From Prevotella sp. (lineage in GTDB: Bacteria > Bacteroidota > Bacteroidia > Bacteroidales > Bacteroidaceae), in contig JAGAON010000006.1 of the NCBI GenBank assembly GCA_017623655.1, positions 40,679-104,678 on the forward strand: a DNA stretch of 64,000 nucleotides, read 5' to 3'. Made by a program: the position numbers and the translations under genes. The first letter of the stretch is position 1, and each line of letters begins with the position of its first letter. The notes beneath the pieces were generated by a model that saw nothing but the letters and a program-made list of their open reading frames with translations, did not search any database and was not told the DNA's origin. Below are positions 17,357-63,634 of the stretch, piece after piece.

Positions 17357-17374
17357 CCGCTCACGCCCGGCAAC

Positions 17375-17430
17375 AAGGTTGACAAATGTTTCAATGAGGT
17401 AGAAAGAAACATCTGTCAACCTTATTTTTC
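17375..17430 (+). terminator. Terminator after the sensor-regulator
   Basis: An 18-bp stem (AAGGTTGACAAATGTTTC against GAAACATCTGTCAACCTT, one mismatch) is followed by ATTTTTCC. The loop is about 13 nt. Confidence 0.8.
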
Positions 17431-17462
17431 CATCTGTCTCCTATACGAAAGGACATAAAACA

Positions 17463-17470
17463 CTAACTTT
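17463..17470 (+). promoter_or_regulatory. -7 box of the acetyl esterase gene
   Basis: TAACTTTG fits TAnnTTTG and is 40 bp before the esterase ATG. No clear -33 box is seen, suggesting activator dependence. Confidence 0.5.
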
Positions 17471-17510
17471 GCGCGATGAAGTAAAGTTATGATTAAATCT
17501 ATTGTATAAG

Positions 17511-18506: not shown

Positions 18507-18551
18507 CGCGCAAAGTATCCCATTACAAACCAATACGTTACAAAGAGCGTC

Positions 18552-18637
18552 GCAAAAGGGTGCTGATTACATTGCAATCAGCACCCTTTTGCATTGTAAT
18601 CAGCACCTGTTCACCGTGTAATCAGCACCTGATTGCA
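18552..18637. repeat. GTGCTGATTAC-type array 4
   Basis: A CAAAAGGGTGCTGATT / AATCAGCACCCTTTTG hairpin (18553-18591) followed by two further units on the opposite arm. It lies just after the esterase gene and may act as its terminator. The rest of the gap to 18886 holds no ORF. Confidence 0.8.
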
Positions 18638-18836
18638 GACGGATTTGTCTGCACCCCTTTCGTGTCCTGTTATCAGTTCCTTATTCAGCGGCGGTTTGGG
18701 GGCATCTGACATCGTAATGACACGCCGGCCAAAGCAATATGCCGGCCTTGCGGCCAAACAGTCGTGTTACTGCAAACATGTGGTTAAAAAACATTAATTG
18801 TATATGGTATATGCCATTACATTACCTATTTTTTAT

Positions 18837-18844
18837 TACCTTTG
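18837..18844 (+). promoter_or_regulatory. -7 box of the ABC transporter operon
   Basis: TACCTTTG matches TAnnTTTG, 42 bp upstream of the ATG at 18887. Confidence 0.5.
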
Positions 18845-18886
18845 CTTAACGATACGTATGAAAAAACATAAAACCCGTCAGGTGGG

Positions 18887-21790
18887 ATGGTTACGGATAC
18901 AATAATATCAGCTCTTACCAATCTGTTCGCGCTGTTCTGTTCCAGAGGCAACGTGGACACGAAGGTTTCGGCTAAGATGCTGGAAAGTTATCTCGGCAGC
19001 CATTTCGGCATACGCAACAAGGAGCAATATGTCAAGCTATATCAGGATTTAAGGGGCTTTTACGAGGATATGCCGGAACTGGATACGGAGGGTATTGTTG
19101 ACGGTATATGCACGGGTCTGAAATCTGAGATACGCCAGGAAGAGGGGGCTATGGTGCTGCTTCGGCTGATGGAGTTCTGCGCCAAGACACCGGAATACTT
19201 CGATGTGGAAGACCCTATCTTCACACGCACAGCCCAAAAGTTAGGGATTCCCAAAAGACTGTGTACGCTGTTCGCGGACTTTGTGCTGGGCTATGAGACG
19301 CGGGACGTGAAGCTCTGCCGGTTCGACGGGTTCAAGGCTCCGGTCAAAACGCTTTGGCTCAGGACGATGAACCTGATGGTGTTCTCTTACGATGGCAGCG
19401 ACATCAGGAATGTATTGTTCAACGATGTACCTGTCGTCAAGGGCATGTATCAGGTGTGGGACACCAGTGGTGTGCTGAAAAACAGGCTGGGCAAGCCGGT
19501 CTATTACTCCATGGTTCTTGCGCAATATCATGCCGCCAGCAAGAAAGGAAGAATACTGTTCTCGGGCAGAGACGTTGATTTCTACTATCCAAAAAGCAAG
19601 GACGGGATACACAACTTCTCGTTTGACATGCACGACGGGGAGCTGATTGCCATCATGGGAGGCAGCGGTTCGGGCAAGACTACGCTTATTTCCATTCTCA
19701 ACGGCAACATAGTGCCGCAGAAAGGCAGCATAACCATAAACGGATATCCACTTGACCATCCGAAGGCCAAGGCACTGATAGGGTTTGTTCCGCAGGATGA
19801 CTTGCTGATAGAAGAACTGACTGTATATCAGAACCTGTACTATACCGCCAGACTATGCTTTGACGGTATGCCGGAAGAGGAGATAGACCGCAGGGTTACA
19901 ACCACGCTGAAAGACCTCGGACTGTTTCAGGCGAAGGACTTGAAGGTAGGCTCCCCTGTCAAGAAAATCATCTCCGGCGGACAGCGCAAGCGCCTCAACA
20001 TTGCCTTGGAACTGCTCCGCGAGCCGGCGGTACTGTTGCTTGACGAGCCTACATCGGGGCTGTCCTCGGCAGATACGGAGAACGTTATATCGCTGTTGAA
20101 GGAACAGACGGCCAAGGGAAAGCTGATAGTGACGAACATACACCAGCCCTCTTCCGACGTGTATAAGCTGTTCGACAGACTGTGGTTGCTTGACAAGGGA
20201 GGCTATCCGGTATATGACGGCAACCCGATAGAGGCGATAACATATTTCAAAAGAGCCGCCAACTACGCCGACGCAGACACCAGTACCTGTCCGGTATGCG
20301 GCAATGTCAATCCGGAAGTGGTGCTGAACATAATAGAAGCCAAGGCACTTGACAGCAAGGGGCAGGTGACAGGAGAGCGTAAGGTGACGCCGGAGAGATG
20401 GCATCAGATGTATATCGACGGCAGGCCGGAAATGGGAAAGCCGCAGAAGTTCGGCATTCCCGAGACGGAACAGAAGAAGCCTGGCGCCTTGAAACAATGG
20501 TGGATATTCATCAGGCGCAACGTGATGACGAAGGTAACGAACGGGCAGTATCTCGCGATAACATTGCTTGAAGCCCCTCTATTGGCGCTGGTATGCGCAC
20601 TGCTGACCCACTACACCCCGCCGGGAGAGGACTATTCCCTGATGAACAACAAGAACCTTGTGTCATACTTGTTCATGGCCGTGATAGTAGCAACGTTCGT
20701 CGGCATGAGCGGTTCGGCCGAAGAGATAATAAAAGACAGGGCTCTGCTGAAACGGGAGAAGTTCCTTAACCTGTCATACCATAGCTATATATGGTCGAAA
20801 GTGGCGTTGATGGCAGTAGTATCTCTTGTTCAAACGCTGTTGTTCATTGCGGTAGGCAACAGCATAATGGAGGTAACGGACCAGTTCCTTGCATGGTGGG
20901 GCATACTGTTCACCACCGCAGTGCTGGCCAATCTCATGGGACTGCTGCTCTCGCAGAGCCTCGGTTCGGTGGTAGCCATATACATAACGATACCCATACT
21001 GCTCATTCCGCAGATACTACTGTGCGGCCTTGTGGTCAGTTTCAGCGACCTTACGCCCAAGAGCACTACGGGAAACGTGCCGGTTATAGGCAACATCATA
21101 CCGTCACGCTGGGCATACGAGGCTCTTGCAGTGGCCAACTATGCTGGCAATGACTATGAGAAGGACTACTTCAAGCTCGACAGAATCAAGTACGAAACGG
21201 AGTATTACCGGCACGGATTCATATACGAATTGCAGTCAGCGAACGAGACAATGGAGCAGGACCGCTTGCAGGGCAAGGCGCAACAAGCCCCCGAACACCT
21301 CACGCTGTTAAGGACGGAGCTGCCGCATCTGGCGGAAGTATGCGCCATGAAGCCTTACAAAGGCGGTTATGACTACCGGTCACTGCACGCCTATCTGGAA
21401 GAGGCGGAGCGGATAATGCTCGTCAAAGGCAACGCGGCAACGCTGACAGCCGACCGCATGAGAGTAGCCATGGCGGCCGACATAGGCAAAGACGGGATGC
21501 TGAAACTGAAACGAAAGAGTTTCAACCTGCAACTGGAATCCCAACTGGCGGGGCATGATGCCAAGCGGCTTTGCGACGTTGTAGATGGATATATCGTCCC
21601 ACGTGCGGCCTTTGTATATCTGACACCACGCACGACAAACGGCAACGCGCCGTTTTACAGCAGCGAGAAGCGTGTGGGAAGCATGACGATACCGACCCCA
21701 TGGTTCAACATATCGGTGATGATGTTGATGTGCTTAGTTGCCGTAACCATGCTGTTGCAGGACTTTCCCGGCAGGTACATGAGAAGATAA
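18887..21790 (+). CDS. ABC transporter, fused ATPase and ABC-2 permease with TerB-like N-terminus
   Basis: A 967-aa fusion. Residues 1-140 are helical and resemble TerB-like or helical regulatory domains. An ABC ATPase follows with Walker A GGSGSGKTT (258-266), signature SGGQRKR and Walker B LLLDEPTSGL, all intact, of the ABCG/white-like exporter type. A CPVCG motif (C468/C471) sits in the linker. An ABC-2 permease domain (about 540-740) has six hydrophobic segments, then a soluble helical region (about 745-930) and a final membrane helix (FNISVMMLMCLVAVTMLL). Such fusions are common in Bacteroidota; the cargo is unknown. The lipoprotein gene 54 bp downstream is probably co-transcribed. Confidence 0.88.
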   Translation: MVTDTIISALTNLFALFCSRGNVDTKVSAKMLESYLGSHFGIRNKEQYVKLYQDLRGFYEDMPELDTEGIVDGICTGLKSEIRQEEGAMVLLRLMEFCAKTPEYFDVEDPIFTRTAQKLGIPKRLCTLFADFVLGYETRDVKLCRFDGFKAPVKTLWLRTMNLMVFSYDGSDIRNVLFNDVPVVKGMYQVWDTSGVLKNRLGKPVYYSMVLAQYHAASKKGRILFSGRDVDFYYPKSKDGIHNFSFDMHDGELIAIMGGSGSGKTTLISILNGNIVPQKGSITINGYPLDHPKAKALIGFVPQDDLLIEELTVYQNLYYTARLCFDGMPEEEIDRRVTTTLKDLGLFQAKDLKVGSPVKKIISGGQRKRLNIALELLREPAVLLLDEPTSGLSSADTENVISLLKEQTAKGKLIVTNIHQPSSDVYKLFDRLWLLDKGGYPVYDGNPIEAITYFKRAANYADADTSTCPVCGNVNPEVVLNIIEAKALDSKGQVTGERKVTPERWHQMYIDGRPEMGKPQKFGIPETEQKKPGALKQWWIFIRRNVMTKVTNGQYLAITLLEAPLLALVCALLTHYTPPGEDYSLMNNKNLVSYLFMAVIVATFVGMSGSAEEIIKDRALLKREKFLNLSYHSYIWSKVALMAVVSLVQTLLFIAVGNSIMEVTDQFLAWWGILFTTAVLANLMGLLLSQSLGSVVAIYITIPILLIPQILLCGLVVSFSDLTPKSTTGNVPVIGNIIPSRWAYEALAVANYAGNDYEKDYFKLDRIKYETEYYRHGFIYELQSANETMEQDRLQGKAQQAPEHLTLLRTELPHLAEVCAMKPYKGGYDYRSLHAYLEEAERIMLVKGNAATLTADRMRVAMAADIGKDGMLKLKRKSFNLQLESQLAGHDAKRLCDVVDGYIVPRAAFVYLTPRTTNGNAPFYSSEKRVGSMTIPTPWFNISVMMLMCLVAVTMLLQDFPGRYMRR

Positions 21791-49242: not shown

Positions 49243-49260
49243 TCGTACACTCATATAAAG

Positions 49261-49452
49261 AAAATGCGGGGAAGAACAAATGTTCTTCCCCGCTTTCTTG
49301 TTATACAGGCCTTTTTCCGAAGCGACAGGCAAGTCCTGAAAGGACGGAATAACCAAGCACAGGGTGTAAACCCTGTGTTACAAGGCGTGCACCGCAAGAC
49401 GTATTGGAACCCCAAAGCCGGCAGGCGAGATGCCCATAGGGCAGCGAGGGGT
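49261..49452 (+). repeat. Structured 192-bp element, copy E1
   Basis: It starts with a terminator hairpin, then has three stem-loops: GTCC-TGAAA-GGAC, CACAGGG-TGTAAA-CCCTGTG and TGCCC-ATA-GGGCA. The last sits inside the conserved frame ACCCCAAAGCCGGCAGGCGAG... (first 20 bases meant) and CGAGGGGT, whose ACCCC and GGGGT ends can pair. A nearly identical copy lies exactly 2040 bp downstream in the same orientation. Confidence 0.85.
49266..49302 (+). terminator. Terminator of xylA
   Basis: A perfect 13-bp stem GCGGGGAAGAACA / TGTTCTTCCCCGC with an AA loop, then TTTCTTGTT. Confidence 0.85.
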
Positions 49453-50050: not shown

Positions 50051-50770
50051 ATGCTAAATACAATGAAATTATTGGTTTCTTTTGTGGCTACAATGATTGT
50101 AACCATCAGTGCTATGGGGCAGACGATGACCCTTAAAATGAAATCTGGCAGTTATGTCACATACTCTACTGAGGAGGTAGAAGAAGTGACCTTTGCTGAA
50201 AAATTGGACGAAAGTAATCCTAGTGGAAATTATTACAACGGGCATGAATATGTTGACCTTGGTCTCCCCTCTGGTAAACTATGGGCTACATGCAACATAG
50301 GAGCTACAAGTCCAGAAATGATAGGAGATTACTTTGCCTGGGGAGAGACTAATACTAAAGAAGAATACTCTAAAGACACCTATAACTATTATGGGAAAAA
50401 CATAGGAGAAAACATTTCTGGCACAGAATATGATGCAGCACATGTACAGTGGGGTGGAGAATGGTGTATGCCTACATATTCTGAATTTAGCGAAATGACA
50501 GCAAAATGCACTTGGAAAGTTTCATTTATCAATGGAAATAAATGTTTCGTTGGAACAGCACAAAATGGGAATAGCATTACAATTCCCGCATGCGGATGGA
50601 TTAATGTGTACAATAACAATTCAGCAGAAGATGGTGCATATTGGTGTTCCAATTCTTCAGACACATATAACGCATCTATGGTATGGCTAATAAAACCGAC
50701 AGGCATATACTGCAGTCAGATCAATCCCAAAAGACTAGGCCAGTGCATACGAGCTATTTATAGGAAATAA
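50051..50770 (+). CDS. Secreted protein with FISUMP (Fibrobacter major paralogous)-like domain
   Basis: The 239-aa protein has a signal peptide (KLLVSFVATMIVTISAMG), a short beta lead-in (MTLKMKSGSYVTYSTEEVEEVTF) and the domain EYVDLGLPSGKLWATCNIGA...GDYFAWGETNTKEEY, known from many Bacteroidota surface proteins and related to the Fibrobacter succinogenes major paralogous domain with a C-type-lectin-like fold. The C-terminal part (GAYWCSNSSD to GQCIRAIYRK) matches the fold end where VRPV is usual. Function is unknown; binding or adhesion is plausible. Base composition is clearly more AT-rich than surrounding genes. It sits in the segment between direct repeats E1 and E2. Confidence 0.8.
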   Translation: MLNTMKLLVSFVATMIVTISAMGQTMTLKMKSGSYVTYSTEEVEEVTFAEKLDESNPSGNYYNGHEYVDLGLPSGKLWATCNIGATSPEMIGDYFAWGETNTKEEYSKDTYNYYGKNIGENISGTEYDAAHVQWGGEWCMPTYSEFSEMTAKCTWKVSFINGNKCFVGTAQNGNSITIPACGWINVYNNNSAEDGAYWCSNSSDTYNASMVWLIKPTGIYCSQINPKRLGQCIRAIYRK

Positions 50771-50814
50771 CGAACCTTCACTATTATTTTAGAGACTTAT
50801 ATAATTAGAAACGC

Positions 50815-51222
50815 ATGAAGACTTTATTCACACTTTTAACATTCTTGCTTGTATCGACATTTGCATCTGCAAGCACATCCGCGCTTTATGTCAAGCAGAA
50901 GACTGGCAGAACCGTTAGCTATAGTTTCGGAGAGAAACCTGTTATAACTTACTCGGGAAATAATGTAATAATAAAGACTTCTAATATACAGATGGAATAT
51001 CCGATGGCAGATATAGCAAACATATCTTTTACAGGTACTTCGACAGATGTTTCTTCTATAAAGATAACTCCATTAAATCCCAATGGTCTTACACGCATAT
51101 ATAACAGCAACGGAGTTCTTATAAAATGCTATTCAAAAGAAGATAGCATCGACTTTGACAGTATGCCAAATGGTACATACATAATAAAGGATGGTGATAT
51201 AACTTATAAGATAAAAAAATAA
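50815..51222 (+). CDS. Small secreted protein with type IX-like C-terminal tail
   Basis: A 135-aa protein with signal peptide (MKTLFTLLTFLLVSTFASA), then a beta segment (LYVKQKTGRTVSYSFGEKPVITYSG) resembling the N-terminal lead of its neighbour. The final 45 residues (RIYNSNGVLIKCYS...MPNGTYIIKDGDITYKIKK) look like a type A sorting domain of the type IX secretion system: I/V-Y-N-x-x-G, then the P-x-G-x-Y-I-I turn and terminal basic strand. It is 44 bp after the FISUMP gene and AT-rich like it. Partner or carrier role is inference. Confidence 0.72.
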   Translation: MKTLFTLLTFLLVSTFASASTSALYVKQKTGRTVSYSFGEKPVITYSGNNVIIKTSNIQMEYPMADIANISFTGTSTDVSSIKITPLNPNGLTRIYNSNGVLIKCYSKEDSIDFDSMPNGTYIIKDGDITYKIKK

Positions 51223-51300
51223 AAACTTGAAGACAAACATCCCTCTCGTTTGTTGTATGTTACACCATAACGACGATACCATACCGTAATTCAATAATGG

Positions 51301-51492
51301 AAAATGCGGGGAAGAACAAATGTTCTTCCCCGCTTTCTTGTTATATAGGCATTCTTCCGGAACGACAGGCAAGTCCTAAAAGGACGGAATAACCAAGCAC
51401 AGGGTGTAAACCCTGTGTTACAAGGCGTGCACCGCAAGACGTATTGGAACCCCAAAGCCGGCAGGCGAGATGCCCATAGGGCAGCGAGGGGT
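51301..51492 (+). repeat. Structured 192-bp element, copy E2
   Basis: Same order of stems as copy E1, differing at only a handful of positions around the TATA(C/T)AGG stretch. It provides a terminator (51306-51342) for the preceding small secreted protein gene. Confidence 0.85.
51306..51342 (+). terminator. Terminator within copy E2
   Basis: The same 13-bp GCGGGGAAGAACA stem and TTTCTTGTT tail as after xylA. Confidence 0.8.
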
Positions 51493-51669: not shown

Positions 51670-52236
51670 TCAGCCGGCATACGCCCGCTCTATGTCATGC
51701 GCCACAACGGGCGGGACGAAAGGCGTTACGTCCTCTCCCCTACGCACCATCCCGCGCAACATCGTGCTGGTGACATCCACGGTGGGAACCGACACGAACG
51801 TGACACCTGCGGGCACTTCGGCCGGCACATCAGCCCCCTCACGGGGGAACACCGCTATGCGATGCGTGGAGAGTATGTCCTCACTGTGCGCCCAACGATG
51901 GAAATTCGCCCAGTTGTCACCACCTATAATAAGCACAAACTCGTCATCAGGGAAATCACGGTGCAGGTGTTGCAACGTGTTCCATGTATATGACGGCCGT
52001 GGCAGAGAGAACTCATAATCAACGGCACGCAGCCCTTTCTCGCCGGCAACGGCCTTTTCCACCATGCGCAAACGCTCCCTCTCGTCCAACAAGTCCGCCG
52101 ACTGTTTCAACGGATTGTGCGGGGAGACCATATACCATACCTCATCCAGCCCCATAGCCCGCAGCATGGTACGCCCGATGGCGATGTGCCCGTTATGTAT
52201 GGGATTGAACGAGCCTCCGAATATTCCTATCTTCAT
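51670..52236 (-). CDS. nadD: Nicotinate-nucleotide adenylyltransferase
   Basis: NadD makes nicotinic acid adenine dinucleotide from NaMN and ATP in NAD synthesis. The 188-aa protein has GGSFNPIHNGH with the nucleotidyltransferase HxGH at 14-17, VLIIGGDNWANFHRW and, near the end, VTSTMLRGMVRRG as the ST-x-x-R-type motif. The ATG ending at 52236 is 5 nt from a TAnnTTTG box; the ORF extension further upstream is promoter sequence. Confidence 0.95.
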   Translation of the reverse strand: MKIGIFGGSFNPIHNGHIAIGRTMLRAMGLDEVWYMVSPHNPLKQSADLLDERERLRMVEKAVAGEKGLRAVDYEFSLPRPSYTWNTLQHLHRDFPDDEFVLIIGGDNWANFHRWAHSEDILSTHRIAVFPREGADVPAEVPAGVTFVSVPTVDVTSTMLRGMVRRGEDVTPFVPPVVAHDIERAYAG

Positions 52237-52241
52237 GGTTG

Positions 52242-52249
52242 CAAAGGTA
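52242..52249 (-). promoter_or_regulatory. -7 box of nadD
   Basis: TACCTTTG on the minus strand, 5 nt before the start codon, so the mRNA is predicted to be leaderless or nearly so. Confidence 0.6.
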
Positions 52250-52410
52250 CGTCTTTTTTTCGACAAATACGACAAAAAGTGCGAACGATTCACACCGTCC
52301 GCACCCTATCGAAACAAATTATTACTCCCACAATGTGTCATTAAGCGGGATGTGCACTTCTATCTATACATTCAGAACTGCAATGTTTTACATTTATGAT
52401 ATTGTTGCAT

Positions 52411-53070
52411 TTACTTTACTGTCACCTTGCGTGCCACGCCGCTGTTGACATCCTTCACGATGTTAATGCCTGAACGCAATGCCGGCAGCTTTTGGCCGTT
52501 GGTGTCATATATCTCCACCTCCGTACCGGCAGCGTCAGCCACCGCCTCATTGACACCTGTCGGATCAGCGACTGTTATCTTGCCGGTGTATGTACCTTTC
52601 TTGGTAACAATAGCATTCTTTGAGTCAACAAGCTCTGTGTTAAACAGCTTTATCTCATACTCACCGGGTGCTACTGTCTCCGCAACATCAACGGTAATGG
52701 TGAACACCTCACCCTCTGTGCCGTCAAAAGGCTTGTTCGCAGAGTGAATTGCCACAACACGATACTCTCCGTTAACATAGTTGGAGGAAAGATTATGCTT
52801 TCTTGCGGTTGTACGTTCTGTACTAAGGTCTATCAAATAAAAGTCATCCTCCTGCGGAACTGTGACACCTTCCGGCAAAGTAAAATATGTACTTATTGTA
52901 AGCATATCCACATTGTTCTTCATCTGTACGGACAGCGTAGCACGCTCGCCGGGCTTTACCGTAGCGTCAAGAACATAGAGAGTATTGTCGGGAATGGTAG
53001 TTATGTCCTGCGCTATGGCCGGAGCTATGCCCATCAACATTGTTGCGAAGGCAAAAATTAACTTCTTCAT
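52411..53070 (-). CDS. Secreted cohesin-like protein with C-terminal sorting-type tail
   Basis: A 219-aa protein: signal peptide MKKLIFAFATMLMGIAPAIAQ, one cohesin-like beta sandwich (about 30-165: DATVKPGERATLSVQMKN, LPEGVTVP, GEVFTITVDVAETVAPGEYEIKL), and a tail (EVEIYDTNGQKLPALRSGINIVKDV...KVTVK) resembling the type IX secretion sorting domain. Cohesins classically bind dockerins in Clostridial cellulosomes; in Bacteroidota the domain is known but its partners are mostly not. It lies 61 bp after the cohesin-dockerin gene and is probably co-transcribed with it. Confidence 0.8.
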   Translation of the reverse strand: MKKLIFAFATMLMGIAPAIAQDITTIPDNTLYVLDATVKPGERATLSVQMKNNVDMLTISTYFTLPEGVTVPQEDDFYLIDLSTERTTARKHNLSSNYVNGEYRVVAIHSANKPFDGTEGEVFTITVDVAETVAPGEYEIKLFNTELVDSKNAIVTKKGTYTGKITVADPTGVNEAVADAAGTEVEIYDTNGQKLPALRSGINIVKDVNSGVARKVTVK

Positions 53071-53131
53071 TTCTTCTATTTATATTAAAGGTTTGTCATT
53101 TATCATTTGGCATCTTAATGCTATGCCAATA

Positions 53132-54220
53132 TCAGTTGCCAAGAAACATTGACAATATCATACTGGCATCTGCCGGTGTTATGTCACCATCTTCATTAAC
53201 ATCGGCTACCGAGGCATCAAAGCCTTCCGGCTCCTGACCAAGGAAGTAGCTGACTATCATGCTGGCATCGGCGGGTGTTACTTCACCGTCGCTGTTGACA
53301 TCACCAAGCAATGCGCTGACAGTCACGGCAACCTCGTTTGCTGTGCCTTCCGTATCAAAGGCGGCAAAGCCGTTGGAGACAAACACATTGCTGAGAGACA
53401 GTGTGCCGGTGCCTTTCGCTACGCCTTTAAGGACGATGGAGAACAAAGGTGCGTCACTCTCGGCAAACTCGTCATTGGTAAGAGATTCCACAAGAATTTT
53501 GCCGCTCTCGGCTATGTAGTTTACAGACACGTTATCGGAAAGGCGGTCACCCATCAGCATCTCCTCAACCTCAACACCTTCCGGAAGGTTCAGCTTTGCC
53601 TCAAAAGCAGAGAGCGCTATGGTATTGGCCATATAGACATCCACGGTATCTTTATCGTTGAGGGTGATGGACACGGCCTCAGGTGAGAGCGAGAATGTTC
53701 CGGCATTGGCCTTCACACTCATCTCGCTGTCGTTCATCGGCTTTTCCTCTGCCGGCACAACCGTAGCGTCACTGCCTATCACATTGCGCAGAACCAGCTT
53801 GCCACCGTTGAAAGTCTTTGCGGCCTTAACGTTGAAAGAGAAAATCATGCCGCTGTTACCTTTTATCGCTGTGGAAGACGGTGTTGTTCCTTTGGCAAAG
53901 ATTGTGAAACGCTTTGTCACTGTCGGATCAGGGAAATCCGTCGCGTTAAGGCTGTGGCTGTTGCGTGTAAGACGCTCAGTATTGCGCTCCGCGGTTTTTT
54001 CCACATATTCCAGTCCCGCAGGAAGCACAAGGTCAACCTGCAAAGAGGAGATGTTGTCTTCATTATCCATCATCACATTCACCGTAGCCTCCTGACCGGG
54101 AATGATGCTGAAATCCTCCACATACACATTGTTCTCCGCCATTGCGGCTACCGGAGCCACAAGCGACACAAGGCATAAAAGCACTGATTTCAGAATGTTG
54201 TTCGTAGTATTCATCTTCAT
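53132..54220 (-). CDS. Secreted protein with two cohesin-like domains and a type I dockerin
   Basis: The 362-aa protein has a signal peptide (LKSVLLCLVSLVAPVAAMA), cohesin-like domain 1 (about 30-172: SIIPGQEATVNVMMDN, LPAGLEYVEK), cohesin-like domain 2 (about 178-300: LNLPEGVEVEEM, LFSIVLKGVAKGTGTLSLS) and a dockerin (304-362) with two near-identical calcium loops, DVNSDGEVTPADASMI and DVNEDGDITPADASMI, each with the D-x-N-x-D-G...D ligand order. Having both partner modules on one chain would allow chain-like assembly. It is the middle gene of the three-gene cluster. Confidence 0.85.
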   Translation of the reverse strand: MKMNTTNNILKSVLLCLVSLVAPVAAMAENNVYVEDFSIIPGQEATVNVMMDNEDNISSLQVDLVLPAGLEYVEKTAERNTERLTRNSHSLNATDFPDPTVTKRFTIFAKGTTPSSTAIKGNSGMIFSFNVKAAKTFNGGKLVLRNVIGSDATVVPAEEKPMNDSEMSVKANAGTFSLSPEAVSITLNDKDTVDVYMANTIALSAFEAKLNLPEGVEVEEMLMGDRLSDNVSVNYIAESGKILVESLTNDEFAESDAPLFSIVLKGVAKGTGTLSLSNVFVSNGFAAFDTEGTANEVAVTVSALLGDVNSDGEVTPADASMIVSYFLGQEPEGFDASVADVNEDGDITPADASMILSMFLGN

Positions 54221-54320
54221 AATGAACAGTTTGTTTTGTTGTTATTTTGTTGATTGCGAGTAAAAAAAGGCGGGCATGACAGGCAGTCACAGTCTGCCAT
54301 GCCCTGAATGTTTAGATTTT

Positions 54321-57300
54321 TTACTCAATAACCTGTTTCTTGGTTGTTCCGTCAGAGTTGACGATGATGTTAATGCCCTTCTTCATCTTGTTCATCAACA
54401 TACCGCCCACACTGTAAACCTTAGACTGTACCTTCTCCACTGTGGTAAGGTTGGCCAGGCCTGTCGGTGTGCCGATAGAAGACTTCGCAAGGGTGAATAC
54501 AGTGCCTTCGGCATCAGCGAACTTGGCGTTCTGCACCTCTATGCCACCTCCATTGTAGTCGGACGTCACCTCAACGTTGAGCTCCACGAAGGTTTGTCCG
54601 TTTACTATTTCGGTATTTTCAAGGTTGCTTACAAGCACGCGGACCGCGCCGTTCACTTCGCCCATCAGAGCGTCGTGGCTTGAGGAAGCAACGGAAGCAA
54701 GTTTAACTCCGGCAGGCAACACTACATCGAACTGGCCGCCTACAAATCCAAGCGGGCTGTCAACGGCAACCTTCAAGGTCTGCGTAAGGCCTGAGCCCTC
54801 CGCCGTCATGGCAAGACTGCCGTAGGTCGGCAGGCCGAGCGCCATGCCCTTGGCCATCGCAACAGATGATGTTCCGGCGGGAGCGGCAGGGAATTCCTCA
54901 CCCTCCATGATGTATTTGCCTATCAATGTCAGGTCACCGACGTTTACAAGACCATCCCAGTTTACATCGGCAGCGTAGAACATTGCGCTGGTTTCGGCAG
55001 GATTGTTGATCTCAAGGATTATCTGGCGGACTGCATCGTAGTCACCTACTGTAATCTTACCGTTGTGATCAACATCACCCTTAATCCAACTCTTGTCTTT
55101 GGCATCCTGTGCAAGTGCGGCCACGGCATCAGCAACTTCCTTTGCCTTGGCCATGATGGCAGGATATTCCTCCATATAGACTACCGTCTTGCCAACAGTC
55201 TCGTCCTCATTTATAATCGGCTTGCCATTGATGTCCTTATTTACAAGACCTTGATATGCGGCTTCATTATAGTTATAAAGATTACTATAATTGCCGTTCA
55301 CCGTATTATATGTATTGTTCAGAGCCACTCTGTCAGCATCGGTGTAGCCAAGGTTGTCAATGTCCTTCTTCGCAGCTTTCAGATCCGTATTAATCTTAGC
55401 GATTGTCTGATTAGCGTTGTATCCCGCACAAGTCTTCTCCATATTGCTTATGTTGGATGTGATGTCATCTATGGTGTAGTCTGTCGGCTTGGAGGTTGCA
55501 GTAAGGTTGTACTTCTCGTTCTCGCCGTTAAGCCATTCCATGTCTTTGGCTATCTGGTAAGAATACAAAGCATAGTACTTCTCTGCGTATGTAGAGAACT
55601 TCTCATTCTCTCCTATCTCACCGTCACCATCGATGTCGCAATCATAGTTGTCCGTCTGCTGGTACTCATACTCCTTTATCGCGTTGTTAACGCTTTCAAG
55701 CTTTTCGGTAAGAGCGTTGAGCTGACCGCGAAGTTCCAAGTACTTGGCATCGTTCACATCATACGGAGCCTCCATACCGGCAATGTCAGCGCTGAGTTTA
55801 GATACGGACTCGGCAATCTTGCCTGCTGTTGTGGCATTCTCGTCCTGATAGAGCAATACGGTGTTGGCCGCAACCTCAGCGTCAAGCACTGTCTGCAAGG
55901 CATCGATGTCAGCCTTGAAGGCGTCAACCTGAGGCTGATACGTCTCTTTCACCGGAGTGTGACAGTCCGCGAGCTGTGCCACGAACGCATCGTATGTAGC
56001 GGTAAGTTCGTCTATCTTCTTCTGAACAGCCTCCTGTGCAGCCGCTGCGGCAGCTTCATTGTAGAGGGATGTCAACTCTGACTTCATCTGACCGACCTCT
56101 GTCTCGAGGGCTATAAACGCCTGACGTGTCTCCTCTGCCGTCGCAAATACAGGCTTGCCGTCAACATATACCGGTGCACCGTCCTTGTCAACCTTACCGT
56201 CCTTGAAGTCGCGGAGTATCTCCGCATTCTTCTTGCTGTAACCGGCAATCAAGTCCTTATAGCGCTTGGTGTCGAAGTCTGCGTTGTCTATATTGGCCGC
56301 CGCAGCCTGGTTATAGTCATGCTGCAAGAAACCTATCTGCACCTCAACAGCGGTACTCTCTTCCATAAGTGCCGCACCGGAAGTCTTGCCTTCGATTATA
56401 GCCTTTATGCTTGCAATCTGCTGGTCACACTTATTCTTGAAGTCAGCGAGATTTGCCTCGGCAGTGTTCGCCGTATGATAACCCTTGGCTTCCTCCGTCA
56501 AATTGTCTATCGCGGATTGCGCAATGTCCAGACGGTTGGTTACGGTAGTGTTGTTACGGATTATGAGAGACGCAACGAACTCCTCCGCCTTGTCGAGTTC
56601 TGCCTGAACATTACCTATCTTATCCTGCATTGCGAGATAAGAATTGTCGTTAGCATGATACTTCTGGTCAGCGTCGTATGCCTTCCAGAATGTCGCGGTA
56701 TGCTTAACAGACCATTCTTTCGGCTGTTCTGTGTCGTCCTTGTCGTAACCTGTATGCACGGCCGGTGTGCCGAACTTGTCAAGAGCGGACTTGACTGACT
56801 CTGTTTCCTCCTCGGCTACTTTGTCAAATGCGGTGTACTTATCCGCATCGGCTATCTCAGCCCACAATGCCTCGGCCTTGTCTATTGAAGACTCAACAAA
56901 GGTCTTGTACTCCTCAGAGAATGCTCCGAGCGTGCCGTCCTCACCATTATAGCCGGCAATGAGCGTTGCCTCACTGTTGGCCAATGTGCGGTATGCTTTG
57001 AGCCTGTCGTTGTAAGACGCCACGGCGGCATTTGTCTTGTCGGCCGTAATCTTGGCATCAACTGACGCAAAATCAGGAAGGATAGTGTTGTCAAGATACT
57101 CGGCGAAGTCCGCATGAACAAAGTTTCCTGCCTCGTCCTTTGCCGTGTAACCCTTGGCGTTGTCTATTATATCCTGTACATCCTTGAACTCCTTTGTCAG
57201 GAAGTCAGCGGTAGCAAAGCTGCTGCCGAGCTTGTCGGCCACCTCCTTCTTGGCATCAGCGAGTGCAGTCTTCACCTCCTGCGCCTTGGTGTTGTACGTG

Positions 57301-60300
57301 GTTTCCGCAAACTCATTGACAAGTTTCGTGTACTTGGTGGTGATAGCGTCTATCTCAGACTTCATCGTGTTGGCCTGTTCCTTGAACTTCTCACCGCCGT
57401 CAAACAGTGTAGGAGCCACGGTTGAAGCATAAGCGTTTTCCGTGTCAGTCTTCAACTTGCGAATCTTGTCGGCATAAGTATAGATACCGTTCTCGCCTAC
57501 CACTTCTTTCAGGTCTTCACCGTAACCGTCGGCATAGCTCAACTTACTGAGGCGGGCTATCACGTCAACGTCATCCGCATACGTCTTGGTCAGTGCGGTG
57601 TAAGCATCGTCAAACGCCTGCTTGCGCACCTGATTGTCAGCGGCGACAGCCTTGGTGTATTCATCGTTCCAGCCTGTCTTCAAGGTGTTCAGCTTCGTCT
57701 CGGCAGAGTTCGCCATAGCCTCTATGTCCGCCTTGCCGGTGCTGTTCGTACCTTTCTTGTAAGCTACGGCCACAGAATCCTTATAGTCGGCAATATCCTT
57801 GTCGATAACCAGCAACTCGGCCAGTGCAGCCTCGTGATAGCTTGAAGTCTCGGCACCGGTGATGATGTCAAACACTTCCTTACGGAGTTTGTCAAGCACC
57901 GCAGCCTTGTCGGTCTGGCTCTTATACTCAGCCTCACAGGCTATCAGGTTCTCCGCCACCTTTCCTATGTTGGACTTGAGTGTCGCAAGCTGTGTTGCGA
58001 GACCTCCGCCCACTGCTGTCATGTTCTTTGCTGGATCGGTATATTTAGCCTCGTCAAGCGCACCGGAAAGTATTGTCTTGCCGTCACTCTCATAAACCTT
58101 TCTTACCGCAGTGTTTGCCGTTGTGCGTGCCGTGCCGATGTTGACATACTCGGTACGATACCCCGCAAGCACCGTGTTCACGAAGTAGGTGTAAGCGTCA
58201 GAGCCCTGCACAACCTTCTTGTCTGTCACTGCCTTGGCGATAGCCGTCTCGGCATCAGTAACAGCCTTGCTGACGTTGATTTCCGTATCAGTCTTGCCAT
58301 AATCCTCGTCTGCCTTCTTGTTCGCCTTCTCCTTGGCCACAAGGTCATTGAGGTTGGCAACGGCCGTAACGATGGCATCCTTCGCCTTTGTAAGGTCTGC
58401 CTTGTTGGCGACAACGGTTTCTTCCGTGAACTTAGCCTCTATATCACCTTTCAGCTTTGTGATGGCAGTCTGCTGGTTAGCTGTTTCCGTAGCGAACATA
58501 TTGGCGCCATTCTTCTCGAACATAACCTTTGCGAGCTCGTCGATTATGCCGTCCTTACCGTCTATCGCCACAAGCAGTTCCTTACGTGCCACCTTCTCGG
58601 CGGTATAAGCCTTCTTCACGCTTTCAGCCTTTGTGCTCAAAGTCGTATATTTCTCCTCGGCTTTTTTAAGATCATCAACCACCTCTGACAGTATCGCTAT
58701 TGCGGCGGCGTCATCCGGTGAAGCCTTTGCGTTGCTTATCTTTGTGTTGATGGCAGCCACGGCATCATTACAGTTCTTGAGGAGTGTAGCAAGACCATCT
58801 ATCTTCTTATCCTTGTCACCCTCCTTCACGGTCTGGTCGTCAACCCACTTGCCGTAAGTATCCTTCTCGTATGAAGCGGTGTTCTCGCTCTTATTCTCCG
58901 GGTCAACCTCCGTCTTATACTCGTCCTTATAGACTTCATTCTTTATTACGTTCTTGGTGTCTATCTCACCCACACGGCGTTCAGCCTCGGCAAGCATACT
59001 CTGCTTGGCGTGAGCAAGTTGCACGTCGTTCCACAGCTTCTCGTTGTCAGCGTACTTCTCCTGAAGGTTTGCTATCTTGGCAACGAGATCGTCAAACGTT
59101 GCAAGAGCGGCCATGGCCTCCACGTGTGCGGTGTCATTCTTGGCCACAGCATCGTCAAGCTGTTTCTTCAAGCCCTCGGTGGCACCTATCTTCTTCTCCA
59201 CCTCGGCAATGTACTCGCCGTAGGTCTGACCCTCGAATGTGCCGTCGATGGTAACGTCGCGGTTCACGGCCACTTCCTTCAAGCCCGTAACAGCCGGAAC
59301 GTAGCCGTCCTTACCCTCTTCGCCTACTGCCGCCTTACCATTGAGAGCCACATCGTATGAAGCGAGAGCTTCAACGACAGCCTCATACTTAGTCATGGCG
59401 CCGGAAGCGGCTGTGGCATAGTCCGTGATGTTTTTGCCAATAGCGTCAGAACCGTAAAGGGTCACCTTGCCGTCCTTTGTCTGGTCCTTTGCAATACCTT
59501 TATAGAACTCCTCTGCCGTACCTGTGCCGTCAGCCTTGAAACTTGCGTTGGCCGCTGCAAGGAGGGCGTTAAGACGCTCCTGAATGGTGCGCTCGTACTC
59601 TGCCGCGAACTTGGTCTTCTGATCGTAAACCTTATCCTTGGAAACGGTGTTCTTGATACCTGTAACGTCTTTCCCGTTACCGTCCTTCTTCAGGTTAAAG
59701 TCAGCCTGCAAGTCAGCAACGGTGGTCTTGGAGGACTCCCAGTTGTCAAACTCCCTGACAGACTTCTCCACCTTCGGCGCAAGTTCGTCTATCACCTTCA
59801 GCACGGCAGCCTTGTCTTTCGCATAGTCTGCGTAATACGGAACGGCGGTTCCGTCACCTATGGTGTGTTTTTTGTTCACATCATCTACATTCGTCTGTAT
59901 GGCGGCGATGCTCTTCTCTATCGCTGCAACCTGTTCGGCATAGAAAGCACTGACCTCGTCACGCTTATAGTCCTTGCCGTCCTTCTTGCCTATAACGTTC
60001 TTCACCTGCTCTGCAAGGTAACCGGTAAGATTGTCCTTGACATCGTTGCAGGCTGCCTTATAGTTGGCGCGAAGGGTTGTGGCCTTCTCTTCGTACTCAG
60101 CATAGACGGTGCCTATATTATCTACCGCTTTCAGTTTCTCTTGGAACGCAACCTGAGTTTCAGTTGTGCATGTTCCCTTCTTGTACTCAGCCTCGTTGCC
60201 TGCCTTCACCTCATTGATGACACGCAGATAGTCGTTGAGCTTGCTGAGAGACTCTACATACATATCACGGTAAGTGTCACCGTCCTTTTCCGTAGCGTTG

Positions 60301-61754
60301 TTGGCAAGGAGATTATAGAGTTTGTTGGCCTCATCATCATACTTGGCCTTGGCATCATTGATGCTCTTGTTGACGTTGGCGTAAGAGATTGCGTTGTCGT
60401 CACCGTTAACGATAGCGTTCTTCGCATCGTCAAGGGTTCCCATAACGCCTGTTCCGGCAGTCTCGCCTTCCTTCACCTTACCCACAAGGCCGTCAATATA
60501 TGCCTTGTAAGCATTTAAGTCAGTCTGCTTGCCAGCCTCATACTCTGCGTCTATGGTTGACTTGAAATCCGTAAGCGCGGCAACGGCATTGTCATAAACC
60601 GTCTTGAGGGCAGCCAAAGCAGCCTCTTCCTTTATATTCTCCTGCGCTGACTTATACGCCGCGTCCAGCTCCGCCTTCTTGGCAAGGAGGGAAGTCGCGT
60701 TTGACTCGTCAAGCACCCAACCATTATCATACTTGTTACCATATTTCTCCTGCGCATACGCATAACCGTCGTATGCAGCCTTATCATTGTTTATCGTAGC
60801 GGTAAGGTTGGCTATCTTTGTTTCAAGGCTTGCTACCTTGCCTGTGGTCATGTACTCATCATACTGTGCGAGCCCCATGTTGTTGGCCTCTGCCATAAGG
60901 CTTGAAGCAGCCAACGCATCTTGCTGCAAACGGGCATCGTTGGTATATTGGTTAGCCTTGTTGATCATCACGGCAATCTTCTGCGTATATACGCTCTTCA
61001 CCTCGTTGAGGGAAGCGTCGGAAACTGCCGCAGTAACCTCAATCTTTTTATCACTTGAAGGTTTGCTGCCAAGCTTTACAGACACCTCAAGTACAGTACC
61101 GTTCTTCGCTACAACAACAGCATTATTATCCGCCATCACGGCATCACCGTCTTTAACAGTGAGCGTACCCTCTGCTGCCGTAATCTTATAAGTACCCTTG
61201 TTGAGGGTAATATTTCCTGAACCGGAATCTTTACCACTTTTGACTGTCACTTCCAAGGACTTGGAGGGAGTTGACTCCTCGTAACTGATAGCAGTTATTG
61301 TGCCATTACCTTGCAAACAGATATAATATGTAGTTCCGGCAACAAGTCCAGACACTTTCAACGTGTGTTTTTCTCCTTTTTTGGGTATAGCCACTTTCCC
61401 CATCACGGTTACTGCATCAGCATTACCACCGGGAGCAGTTGCCACAAAAATATGCCTATCAGTATTATCACCAGATGCTGAACCGCTGACGGTCAATACT
61501 CCATTTTTAGAAGGAGTGAAATAAATATGTCTTGTTGTTCCTGTGGAACCACCACCTGTGCTAAACCCATTCTTGTCAATTTTTGCATTGTTACCATTAC
61601 CTACGAAAGTAAAACCACTAATTGTTACAGGAGCGGCCTCACCCGCCAAATTCATTGATGTTGACGGGAACGTCACTTTAATAGTTTCCGCAAACGAAGC
61701 AGACGTTGATACCACCGCCAGCAATGCCGAAACAGGAATTGTAATCTTTCTCAT
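54321..61754 (-). CDS. Giant secreted helical protein with dockerin, cohesin-like domain and sorting-type tail
   Basis: A 2477-aa protein. Signal peptide MRKITIPVSALLAVVSTSASFA; an N-terminal beta-sandwich (about 24-160, ending GTTYYICLQGNGTITAISYEE), a second beta domain (about 165-255), then nearly 1950 residues of Ala/Lys/Asp/Glu-rich, Cys-free helix with short repeated motifs (LNTLKTGWNDEYTKA, LNDLVAKEKANKKADE), like FIVAR-type helical bundles or coiled coil. After it come a dockerin (about 2224-2290: GDVDHNGKITVGDYDAV and ADVNWDGLVNVGDLTLI), a cohesin-like domain (about 2305-2425: LPAGVKLASVASSS) and a type IX-like tail (VYSVGGMLMNKMKKGINIIV). It could be a long extracellular stalk or scaffold. 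The frame is intact throughout. Confidence 0.85.
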   Translation of the reverse strand: MRKITIPVSALLAVVSTSASFAETIKVTFPSTSMNLAGEAAPVTISGFTFVGNGNNAKIDKNGFSTGGGSTGTTRHIYFTPSKNGVLTVSGSASGDNTDRHIFVATAPGGNADAVTVMGKVAIPKKGEKHTLKVSGLVAGTTYYICLQGNGTITAISYEESTPSKSLEVTVKSGKDSGSGNITLNKGTYKITAAEGTLTVKDGDAVMADNNAVVVAKNGTVLEVSVKLGSKPSSDKKIEVTAAVSDASLNEVKSVYTQKIAVMINKANQYTNDARLQQDALAASSLMAEANNMGLAQYDEYMTTGKVASLETKIANLTATINNDKAAYDGYAYAQEKYGNKYDNGWVLDESNATSLLAKKAELDAAYKSAQENIKEEAALAALKTVYDNAVAALTDFKSTIDAEYEAGKQTDLNAYKAYIDGLVGKVKEGETAGTGVMGTLDDAKNAIVNGDDNAISYANVNKSINDAKAKYDDEANKLYNLLANNATEKDGDTYRDMYVESLSKLNDYLRVINEVKAGNEAEYKKGTCTTETQVAFQEKLKAVDNIGTVYAEYEEKATTLRANYKAACNDVKDNLTGYLAEQVKNVIGKKDGKDYKRDEVSAFYAEQVAAIEKSIAAIQTNVDDVNKKHTIGDGTAVPYYADYAKDKAAVLKVIDELAPKVEKSVREFDNWESSKTTVADLQADFNLKKDGNGKDVTGIKNTVSKDKVYDQKTKFAAEYERTIQERLNALLAAANASFKADGTGTAEEFYKGIAKDQTKDGKVTLYGSDAIGKNITDYATAASGAMTKYEAVVEALASYDVALNGKAAVGEEGKDGYVPAVTGLKEVAVNRDVTIDGTFEGQTYGEYIAEVEKKIGATEGLKKQLDDAVAKNDTAHVEAMAALATFDDLVAKIANLQEKYADNEKLWNDVQLAHAKQSMLAEAERRVGEIDTKNVIKNEVYKDEYKTEVDPENKSENTASYEKDTYGKWVDDQTVKEGDKDKKIDGLATLLKNCNDAVAAINTKISNAKASPDDAAAIAILSEVVDDLKKAEEKYTTLSTKAESVKKAYTAEKVARKELLVAIDGKDGIIDELAKVMFEKNGANMFATETANQQTAITKLKGDIEAKFTEETVVANKADLTKAKDAIVTAVANLNDLVAKEKANKKADEDYGKTDTEINVSKAVTDAETAIAKAVTDKKVVQGSDAYTYFVNTVLAGYRTEYVNIGTARTTANTAVRKVYESDGKTILSGALDEAKYTDPAKNMTAVGGGLATQLATLKSNIGKVAENLIACEAEYKSQTDKAAVLDKLRKEVFDIITGAETSSYHEAALAELLVIDKDIADYKDSVAVAYKKGTNSTGKADIEAMANSAETKLNTLKTGWNDEYTKAVAADNQVRKQAFDDAYTALTKTYADDVDVIARLSKLSYADGYGEDLKEVVGENGIYTYADKIRKLKTDTENAYASTVAPTLFDGGEKFKEQANTMKSEIDAITTKYTKLVNEFAETTYNTKAQEVKTALADAKKEVADKLGSSFATADFLTKEFKDVQDIIDNAKGYTAKDEAGNFVHADFAEYLDNTILPDFASVDAKITADKTNAAVASYNDRLKAYRTLANSEATLIAGYNGEDGTLGAFSEEYKTFVESSIDKAEALWAEIADADKYTAFDKVAEEETESVKSALDKFGTPAVHTGYDKDDTEQPKEWSVKHTATFWKAYDADQKYHANDNSYLAMQDKIGNVQAELDKAEEFVASLIIRNNTTVTNRLDIAQSAIDNLTEEAKGYHTANTAEANLADFKNKCDQQIASIKAIIEGKTSGAALMEESTAVEVQIGFLQHDYNQAAAANIDNADFDTKRYKDLIAGYSKKNAEILRDFKDGKVDKDGAPVYVDGKPVFATAEETRQAFIALETEVGQMKSELTSLYNEAAAAAAQEAVQKKIDELTATYDAFVAQLADCHTPVKETYQPQVDAFKADIDALQTVLDAEVAANTVLLYQDENATTAGKIAESVSKLSADIAGMEAPYDVNDAKYLELRGQLNALTEKLESVNNAIKEYEYQQTDNYDCDIDGDGEIGENEKFSTYAEKYYALYSYQIAKDMEWLNGENEKYNLTATSKPTDYTIDDITSNISNMEKTCAGYNANQTIAKINTDLKAAKKDIDNLGYTDADRVALNNTYNTVNGNYSNLYNYNEAAYQGLVNKDINGKPIINEDETVGKTVVYMEEYPAIMAKAKEVADAVAALAQDAKDKSWIKGDVDHNGKITVGDYDAVRQIILEINNPAETSAMFYAADVNWDGLVNVGDLTLIGKYIMEGEEFPAAPAGTSSVAMAKGMALGLPTYGSLAMTAEGSGLTQTLKVAVDSPLGFVGGQFDVVLPAGVKLASVASSSHDALMGEVNGAVRVLVSNLENTEIVNGQTFVELNVEVTSDYNGGGIEVQNAKFADAEGTVFTLAKSSIGTPTGLANLTTVEKVQSKVYSVGGMLMNKMKKGINIIVNSDGTTKKQVIE

Positions 61755-62340: not shown

Positions 62341-62736
62341 TCATTTACCGCAAGGCTTTTGGTACTTGTCATACACGACCGTCTGCAACGACTTTAACAA
62401 GCGCTTTGACAGAACAAGAGGCTTGACAGCGTCAGGGAAGAACCCTAACATCTGCGTACAGAGGTTGACAGACTGCACGTAATCCGTATTAACAAGATAA
62501 CTCCTGCTCAAACGGAAGAACGGAGATACGTCGCCGCTCCTGTCATACAAGGCCGTTATCTCCTCCTCGAAGTACGCAAGAGAAGACAAGTGGGTTTTAG
62601 ACTTGCCGTCGGTGGTTATAAACTCGGTATAATTACCGTCGGCCTTAAGATAGACGACACTTGACAGATCAATGAGTTCAATGCCGTTACGAGTGTTGAT
62701 GCACATCATCGCGGAGTTTTTGTTGAGAATACCCAT
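62341..62736 (-). CDS. LytTR-domain transcriptional regulator (stand-alone)
   Basis: A 131-aa protein consisting almost only of a LytTR DNA-binding domain (about 17-118): IELIDLSSVVYLKADGNYTEF at the start, FFRLSRSYLVNTDYVQSV as the recognition region and VLSKRLLKSLQ at the end. There is no receiver domain. Stand-alone LytTR proteins in Bacteroidota may be controlled by partner membrane proteins or by their own level. It lies directly upstream of the cohesin-dockerin cluster on the same strand, with near-identical -7 boxes, so it is a candidate regulator of that cluster. Confidence 0.88.
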   Translation of the reverse strand: MGILNKNSAMMCINTRNGIELIDLSSVVYLKADGNYTEFITTDGKSKTHLSSLAYFEEEITALYDRSGDVSPFFRLSRSYLVNTDYVQSVNLCTQMLGFFPDAVKPLVLSKRLLKSLQTVVYDKYQKPCGK

Positions 62737-63440: not shown

Positions 63441-63509
63441 AACATAACCGGCCAACGACGCCCTTGCTTCATCACTCCTTGATTTAAGTAACGGGCTACC
63501 TTTCCCCCG

Positions 63510-63634
63510 CAACAGCCCCGTAGGGGCGGCACAGCAAAGCACAGGGTGTAAGCCCTGTGTTAAGATGGCGCACCCGCAAAACGTATCGGCACCCCAAAGC
63601 CGGCAGGCGAGGAGCACAAAGTGCGACGAGGGGT
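63510..63634 (+). repeat. Structured element, copy E4 (diverged)
   Basis: It carries the same framework as E1/E2 (CACAGGGTGTAA, CCCCAAAGCCGGCAGGCGAG, CGAGGGGT), but two stems are different and still paired: GCCCC-GTA-GGGGC and GCAC-AAA-GTGC. Confidence 0.8.

Follow-up and report, generated by a model that had tools for sequence, protein, structure and literature searches.

Does a gene cluster in which cohesin and dockerin domains stand side by side encode, in a Prevotella genome, proteins that hold each other at the cell surface? This question is raised by three adjacent genes found in a stretch of 64,000 nucleotides of Prevotella sp. (assembly GCA_017623655.1, contig JAGAON010000006.1; G000:C2:40679-104678 in our numbering), referred to below as the window. 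The right edge of the window coincides with the contig end, and the source genome, 1.93 Mb distributed over 9 contigs, is about 60% complete. The three open reading frames (ORFs) are all located on the minus strand, encode proteins of 2477, 362 and 219 amino acids (aa) and are separated by intergenic gaps of 100 and 61 bp. The domain order is dockerin-cohesin-tail (DCt) in the 2477 aa protein, cohesin-cohesin-dockerin (CCD) in the 362 aa protein and cohesin-tail (Ct) in the 219 aa protein. The cluster displays in total four cohesins, two dockerins and two tails that are similar to the sorting tails of the type IX secretion system. This content, described in a first-pass annotation, was confirmed by the ORFs, by the Pfam model PF00404 and by profiles built without the genome under study (held-out profiles). 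We consider it probable that the products of the cluster make up a small cohesin-dockerin assembly on the outside of a Prevotella-like cell, because the gene order is conserved in relatives, a single tailed protein replaces the CCD and Ct proteins in one of them, the two domain families co-occur among the genomes of the genus and the pairs of dockerin and anchor genes are polar. A surface-anchored scaffold made by mutual binding had already been suggested by the first-pass annotation; the comparative evidence speaks for the scaffold, and the binding itself is a prediction from the sequences.

Detection of the dockerins, cohesins and sorting tails

The dockerins of the 2477 aa and 362 aa proteins are matched by PF00404 with 33 and 46 bits, respectively, both above the Pfam cut-off of 22.9. 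Two calcium loops are readable in each of these dockerins, and those of the 362 aa protein are near-identical copies (14 of 19 residues identical). Among the three proteins, the 219 aa one is the only one that the cohesin model PF00963 recognises, with a score under the cut-off (E-value 0.039; 14.6 bits versus 24.1). A held-out cohesin profile was built from 19 seeds that match PF00963 in other genomes, some of them under the Pfam cut-off, the genome of the window being excluded. All four cohesins are detected by this profile, with E-values from 6e-26 to 2e-4, and its iterated form gave no match at E<0.01 in 1951 reversed ORFs. A cohesin family profile, named A5, contains 39 sequences, of which four come from the window and two more from the same genome; 23 of the 39 match PF00963 at E<=0.1. 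At the same threshold, A5 matched 31 PDB sequences, whose titles are those of cohesins, scaffoldins, scaffolding proteins, anchoring proteins, the O-GlcNAcase NagJ and, in two cases, an endoglucanase. We take the entries titled NagJ and endoglucanase to be entries that include a cohesin chain.

The tail profile was rebuilt with the genome of the window left out, starting from 28 seeds picked with a regular expression. The tails of the 219 aa and 2477 aa proteins are both detected (E-values in Table 1), with no match at E<0.01 in reversed sequences. The 28 seeds alone give 4e-4 for the 219 aa protein and nothing for the 2477 aa protein, and the TIGR04183 match to the 219 aa tail stays under the cut-off of that model (E-value 0.1; 12.6 bits versus 23). 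An earlier tail profile of 84 members, including one window tail, is the one on which the protein ends counted below in the sampled loci rest; it finds no sorting tail in the 362 aa protein. By eye, the N-termini of all three proteins read as signal peptides. Pfam and further family-model scans found no enzyme domain in any of the three proteins. The rod of the 2477 aa protein has no Pfam family above cut-off, and its N-terminal region could be given no family, the best PDB sequence match there reaching only an E-value of 0.1.

Other cohesins, dockerins and type IX machinery in the genome

The first-pass annotation had proposed a search of the whole genome for further dockerin proteins. Five Dockerin_1 matches were obtained, four of them above the cut-off; the fifth is partial, lies below the cut-off and is located in a protein that is SusC-like by eye. 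Two of the dockerin proteins above the cut-off are encoded outside the window. The first, encoded on contig C9, is a BspA-type leucine-rich repeat (LRR) protein that has a single cohesin and ends in a dockerin; the next gene encodes a cohesin-tail protein of 221 aa. This second cassette has a counterpart in another genome (G096), and the two anchors are 57% identical. The 221 aa paralogue passes the cut-off of PF00963 (29.5 bits versus 24.1); its tail scores just under the cut-off of TIGR04183 (22.5 versus 23) and is missed by the lineage tail profile. The LRR gene begins less than 200 bp from the contig end, with in-frame stops upstream and no readable signal peptide, and its 5' end is uncertain. 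The second protein, on contig C8, is an arabinofuranosidase/GH43 protein of 1735 aa with the dockerin at its C-terminus, the one dockerin-bearing cell-wall enzyme found in this incomplete genome.

Seven A5 cohesin matches are present in the genome, at most two per protein. A lone 220 aa Ct protein is encoded on contig C3 (L219:9300-9962); it is 46% identical to the 219 aa protein, and no dockerin gene occurs within the 18 kb read around it. In all, the genome as assembled encodes four proteins with a dockerin and three that combine one cohesin with a tail-like end. The SprA translocon of the type IX system is encoded on contig C4 (TIGR04189, 2584 bits). No relatives were found in viral contigs.

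The same tract in related genomes

In Prevotella sp. P2-180, the genes for a LytTR protein, a 1984 aa DCt protein, a 356 aa CCD protein and a 215 aa Ct protein follow each other in the same order as in the window. Between the two tracts, identity is 34% over 346 aa for the CCD proteins and 29% over 626 aa for the giant proteins. The tract of a congener, G081, is composed of LytTR, a DCt protein (26% identity over 1268 aa) and one 469 aa protein of the organization cohesin-cohesin-tail (CCt), which aligns with the two-cohesin part of the CCD protein (33% over 255 aa). The LytTR gene occupies the same position in both related clusters. In G081, a covalent tail replaces the dockerin and the separate Ct protein, which is expected if the dockerin normally reaches a tail via Ct.

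Gene order, protein ends and dockerin cargo

The sampled set is composed of 231 non-redundant cohesin or dockerin genes from 41 genomes, 227 of them with a complete 3' end. The loci were selected for a dockerin or a cohesin, and the 40 cohesin-selected loci were chosen from the best listed A5 matches. A dockerin is the last domain, at most 40 residues from the end, in 129 of the 227 genes, and a tail was found in 0 of these, an exclusion that is partly built in since 40 residues leave little space for a tail. In 32 genes the dockerin is last and further from the end (8 with a tail), and in 66 genes a cohesin is last (54 with a tail). With regard to domain content, 120 genes encode a dockerin without a cohesin (a count inflated by the loci chosen for a dockerin), 38 a cohesin without a dockerin and 69 both domains. 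The 40 cohesin-selected loci contain 70 cohesin genes, and 50 of these encode a dockerin as well. Of the other 20, 18 adjoin a dockerin gene on the same strand at a distance of at most 300 bp. Over the whole sample, the gene immediately downstream of a dockerin-ended gene encodes a cohesin and no dockerin in 22 instances (17 with a tail detected by the profile), and the reverse order was found 0 times.

The cargo of the dockerins was scanned with Pfam in four sets of 37, 21, 28 and 38 dockerin proteins, of which PF00404 matched 36, 21, 27 and 32 at E<=0.001; the cargo tables comprise the 25 commonest families of each set, rarer families lying outside this view. Dockerins are carried by BspA-type LRR proteins, by C10, C25 (G026 only) and M6 peptidases, by proteins with CotH, Fn3 and InlB repeats and by pectate lyase, as well as by single glycoside hydrolases represented by GH5, GH11 and the arabinofuranosidase of the genome under study (last scanned set). 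This cargo looks like a mixed surface proteome more than a cellulase set. The role, which according to the first-pass annotation may be structural rather than catalytic, can be seen in this way for the three cluster genes only: elsewhere, dockerins are attached to the C8 enzyme of the same genome and, in relatives, to peptidases, pectate lyase and a few glycoside hydrolases.

Spread and co-occurrence of the two domains

Matches at E<=1e-5 were counted in 120 genomes of the genus, where A5 is found in 61 and PF00404 in 59. Both domains are present in 55 genomes, the cohesin only in 6, the dockerin only in 4 and neither in 55 (Fisher p 3e-22), and the removal of the 12 genomes that contributed to A5 leaves 44, 5, 4 and 55 genomes, respectively (p 9e-20), both p values being too small given the shared descent of the genomes. 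The number of dockerins per dockerin-bearing genome extends from 1 to at least 49, a value reached by three genomes. In view of these 55 genomes with both dockerins and cohesins, the general statement of the first-pass annotation that Bacteroidota as a rule use Sus-type systems has to be qualified.

At the level of the phylum (296 genomes), 75 genomes have dockerins, 16 have A5 matches and 12 have both. Four other Bacteroidota loci (L221, L222, L223 and L224), taken from among the better A5 matches, show dockerin genes adjoining genes with two or three cohesins. By eye, tail-like ends are seen in most of their dockerin proteins and of their two- or three-cohesin proteins. The genome G026, from another family of the order, encodes two adjacent proteins with 8 and 5 cohesins (L070:8477-15877 and 16022-19741). 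Its dockerin matches number 38, and the 21 carriers scanned include C25 and C10 peptidases; this scaffold system is larger than the cluster of the window.

Possible pairing signals

When dockerins on non-homologous cargo are compared, their likeness is 0.516 within a genome versus 0.360 between genomes, a difference of 0.156, and the largest difference obtained in 200 label permutations is 0.016; pairs with homologous cargo and dockerins of less than 48 residues are excluded from the test. The uniformity is driven by the genomes G001, G009, G013 and G026. A uniform dockerin code as a general rule was rejected for the genome of the window and for G018. In 12 cassettes, the cohesin adjacent to the dockerin was compared with the cohesin of the anchor: the likeness is 0.248 within versus 0.119 across cassettes (0 of 10000 permutations). 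Such a likeness would allow a dockerin to bind the anchor or a further copy of the protein that carries it; it may also reflect only tandem duplication.

Proposed assembly and alternative explanations

In the assembly that we favour, the 219 aa Ct protein would cross the outer membrane via the type IX system, be held at the surface by its tail and present one cohesin. The C-terminal dockerin of the CCD protein would plug into this cohesin, and this non-covalent link would stand in for a sorting tail. The two cohesins of the CCD protein would in turn hold other dockerins, namely that of the 2477 aa rod, that of the arabinofuranosidase/GH43 enzyme or those of more CCD copies, the last case giving a chain; a fibre made of such plug-and-socket proteins is possible. 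The 2477 aa protein would be sorted by its own tail, project a long helical stalk and be joined to the rest via its dockerin or its cohesin. With a signal-peptide-like start and no tail, the CCD protein would ride out with Ct or leave by another way.

A more tentative proposal, which we hold to be rather unlikely, is that the dockerin acts as a detachable sorting signal. Dockerin-ended proteins would bind a tailed cohesin in the periplasm and exit through SprA as a complex. If true, one small tailed protein could export and anchor several cargo proteins. The type IX system would then have a piggyback route based on cohesin-dockerin binding, and 55 of the 120 genomes sampled in the genus, those with both domains, could use it.

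Several observations weigh against the surface assembly. The export of the CCD protein, found without a tail, is left unexplained by the model. A strict cohesin profile made from 11 seeds finds three of the four cohesins and misses that of the 2477 aa protein; the corresponding region of the P2-180 counterpart scores 2e-16. In the phylum, 63 of the 75 dockerin-bearing genomes have no match to A5, a profile built mainly from this genus that distant cohesins may escape. The mutual exclusion of a terminal dockerin and a tail breaks down in the four other Bacteroidota loci (G259, G307, G394 and G429), where the dockerin proteins mostly end, by eye, in tail-like stretches. Dockerin uniformity is absent in G018 (0.337) and in the genome of the window (0.371), versus 0.360 between genomes, and G014, G019 and G022 (3, 7 and 2 pairs) are also near the between-genome value. 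The mirror-tree test of paired dockerins versus anchor cohesins gave a weak result (Mantel r 0.17; 247 of 5000 permutations as high). The genome being incomplete, partners may be missing from it. Finally, the distance between cohesin and dockerin within a chain varies little (23-32 residues for 53 of the 59 cases) and would also fit packing in cis.

This spacing is like that of a rigid unit, as would be found if each dockerin folded onto the neighbouring cohesin-like domain to form a calcium-stabilised end unit, an intramolecular clasp without binding between proteins. X-modules play a comparable stabilising part for some dockerins, and the cohesin adjoining the dockerin may act as a stiffening module instead; two of the three window proteins hold both domains. 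However, the 120 dockerin-only genes (a number raised by the dockerin-chosen loci) and the 38 cohesin-only genes among the 227 leave many proteins without a partner in cis, and both the CCt protein of G081 and the 22:0 gene polarity fit a partner in trans. We regard the clasp as unlikely.

The probability that we give to plain surface adhesins is lower again. The cohesin-like beta-sandwiches and the dockerins would then be spacer and calcium-stabilising modules that do not bind each other, and the cluster a set of co-transcribed adhesins. The 2477 aa protein does look like a stalk, the 362 aa protein touches the Pfam family pAdhesive_11 under its cut-off, and BspA-type LRR is the commonest assigned dockerin cargo, or nearly so, in three of the four scanned sets. 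Yet for inert spacers one would not expect two unrelated domain families to co-occur as they do (55 genomes with both, 6 and 4 with one, 55 with neither), nor the gene polarity, nor the like dockerins found on unrelated cargo in four genomes. A true cellulosome, in which the cluster would belong to the scaffold of a multi-enzyme machine degrading the plant wall, is very improbable for want of multi-cohesin scaffolds and cellulases: although the arabinofuranosidase/GH43 enzyme of the same genome ends in a dockerin and G026 has its proteins with 8 and 5 cohesins and its 38 dockerin matches, this roughly 60% complete genome holds only four dockerin proteins above the cut-off and seven cohesin matches with at most two per protein, and the commonest assigned cargo of the relatives is LRR and peptidase, with few glycoside hydrolases. 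The small surface assembly of the three proteins remains the explanation that we prefer.

Features of the cluster and neighbouring genes

The coordinates of the cluster genes, of their domains and of the LytTR gene are given in Table 1. On the other side, the three cluster genes are followed by a nicotinate-nucleotide adenylyltransferase gene (51670-52293). A direct repeat of 193 bases occurs at 49260-49452, 51300-51492 and 63442-63634; the first two copies are 97% identical and the third 62%. The first two copies bracket two small plus-strand genes at 50051-51222. One of them (50051-50770, plus strand) encodes a secreted protein of 239 aa with no Pfam match, whose C-terminal half resembles, by eye, a domain located after the dockerin in several proteins of G001 with the C-terminus ..SVRPVLP.

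Table 1. Positions in the window of the cohesin-dockerin cluster, its domains and the LytTR gene.
Feature	Position	Strand	Evidence
DCt gene, 2477 aa secreted protein, long helix-rich rod before the DCt domains	54321..61754	-	ORF, Pfam, held-out cohesin and tail profiles, homologues
N-terminal beta-leaning region of the 2477 aa protein (aa about 23-165)	61260..61688	-	residue propensities
Helix-rich, Pro-poor rod of the 2477 aa protein (aa about 250-2200)	55155..61007	-	residue propensities
Dockerin of the 2477 aa protein (aa 2225-2282)	54909..55082	-	PF00404, E 7e-8
Cohesin of the 2477 aa protein (aa 2321-2416)	54507..54794	-	held-out profile, 2e-4
Type-IX-like sorting tail of the 2477 aa protein	54330..54437	-	held-out tail profile, 3.2e-5
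CCD gene, 362 aa secreted protein	53132..54220	-	ORF, Pfam, held-out cohesin profile
First cohesin of the 362 aa protein (aa 34-152)	53765..54121	-	held-out profile, 3e-20
Second cohesin of the 362 aa protein (aa 183-282), directly N-terminal to the dockerin	53375..53674	-	held-out profile, 3e-8
C-terminal dockerin of the 362 aa protein (aa 305-355)	53156..53308	-	PF00404, E 6e-12
Ct gene, 219 aa secreted protein, proposed surface anchor	52411..53070	-	ORF, Pfam, held-out cohesin and tail profiles
Cohesin of the 219 aa protein (aa 34-152)	52615..52971	-	held-out profile, 6e-26
Type-IX-like sorting tail of the 219 aa protein	52453..52560	-	held-out tail profile, 1.1e-6
LytTR DNA-binding protein, 131 aa, just upstream of the cluster	62341..62736	-	Pfam, 4e-11

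Significance and comparison with known systems

Clusters of this type may explain the partners of the puzzling dockerins of rumen and gut Bacteroidota. The candidate partners are divergent cohesins, mostly below the Pfam cut-off in the window, many of them tailed and often encoded directly downstream of a dockerin gene, and the question of the dockerin partner becomes testable in a named genome, that of Prevotella sp. P2-180. The cluster points to a mechanism of surface display, and possibly of export, in common gut bacteria, and it could be a source of new plug-and-socket pairs with which to engineer proteins in Gram-negative cells.

The cellulosomes of clostridia and ruminococci are anchored by surface-layer homology (SLH) modules or by sortase, and the CCD architecture resembles that of their adaptor scaffoldins. 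The proteins described here share type I dockerins and cohesins with these cellulosomes and differ from them by the type-IX-like tail, by one or two cohesins per protein and by few enzymes. The cohesin of the O-GlcNAcase NagJ of C. perfringens, which pairs with a dockerin protein, is a non-cellulosomal one. It is carried by a secreted glycosidase of a Gram-positive organism, has no type IX tail and is among the closest PDB relatives of A5 (2jh2, 2ozn, 2o4e and 2w1n).

The published surveys differ on the presence of the two domains in Bacteroidota. In the passages concerned, PMC6071333 reports cohesins in certain Bacteroidetes species, with 5 dockerins and 1 cohesin gene in Bin136 and 2 cohesins in Bin129; in the same listing of camel-rumen bins, 11 dockerins and 0 cohesins are given for each of the bins 49 and 58, the richest in dockerins among the Bacteroidetes bins of these passages. 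According to the corresponding part of PMC7480376, Prevotella dockerins are attached to proteins with glycoside hydrolase, domain of unknown function (DUF) or carbohydrate-binding module (CBM) annotations, and the role of dockerins in the polysaccharide utilization loci of Bacteroidetes was not yet defined. The relevant excerpts of these two papers describe neither sorting tails on cohesin proteins nor the succession of a dockerin gene and a cohesin gene. In the extracts consulted from three other papers, cohesins are listed only in Firmicutes_A bins (PMC9177762), Bacteroidota single cells have dockerins and the only cohesin belongs to a Christensenellales cell (PMC10266427), and neither domain occurs in the genome described, in agreement with other Bacteroidetes (PMC5831590). 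Our literature search, with most subscription journals outside it and the papers represented by excerpts, found no paper on Prevotella dockerins paired with tailed cohesins.

A similar proposal concerns the Cloacimonadota: the excerpted text of PMC8542988 proposes a cellulosome-like complex in Ca. Stygibacter and, citing a review on type IX secretion, suggests that a conserved C-terminal domain fixes a scaffoldin-like protein to the surface. As in our loci, C-terminal dockerins are found there on secreted enzymes, including a C25 peptidase (PMC8542988). The scaffold of Ca. Stygibacter is, however, one protein of 3755 aa with tandem cohesins and CBMs according to the same passages (PMC8542988), whereas the Prevotella-like genomes contain small cassettes, composed of a dockerin-ended protein and a tailed cohesin partner, with mixed cargo. 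A surface-anchored scaffoldin had already been proposed elsewhere; compared with the parts of the literature cited here, what is new are the divergent tailed cohesins, the gene pair in which the anchor follows the dockerin and the spread of this pair in the genus.

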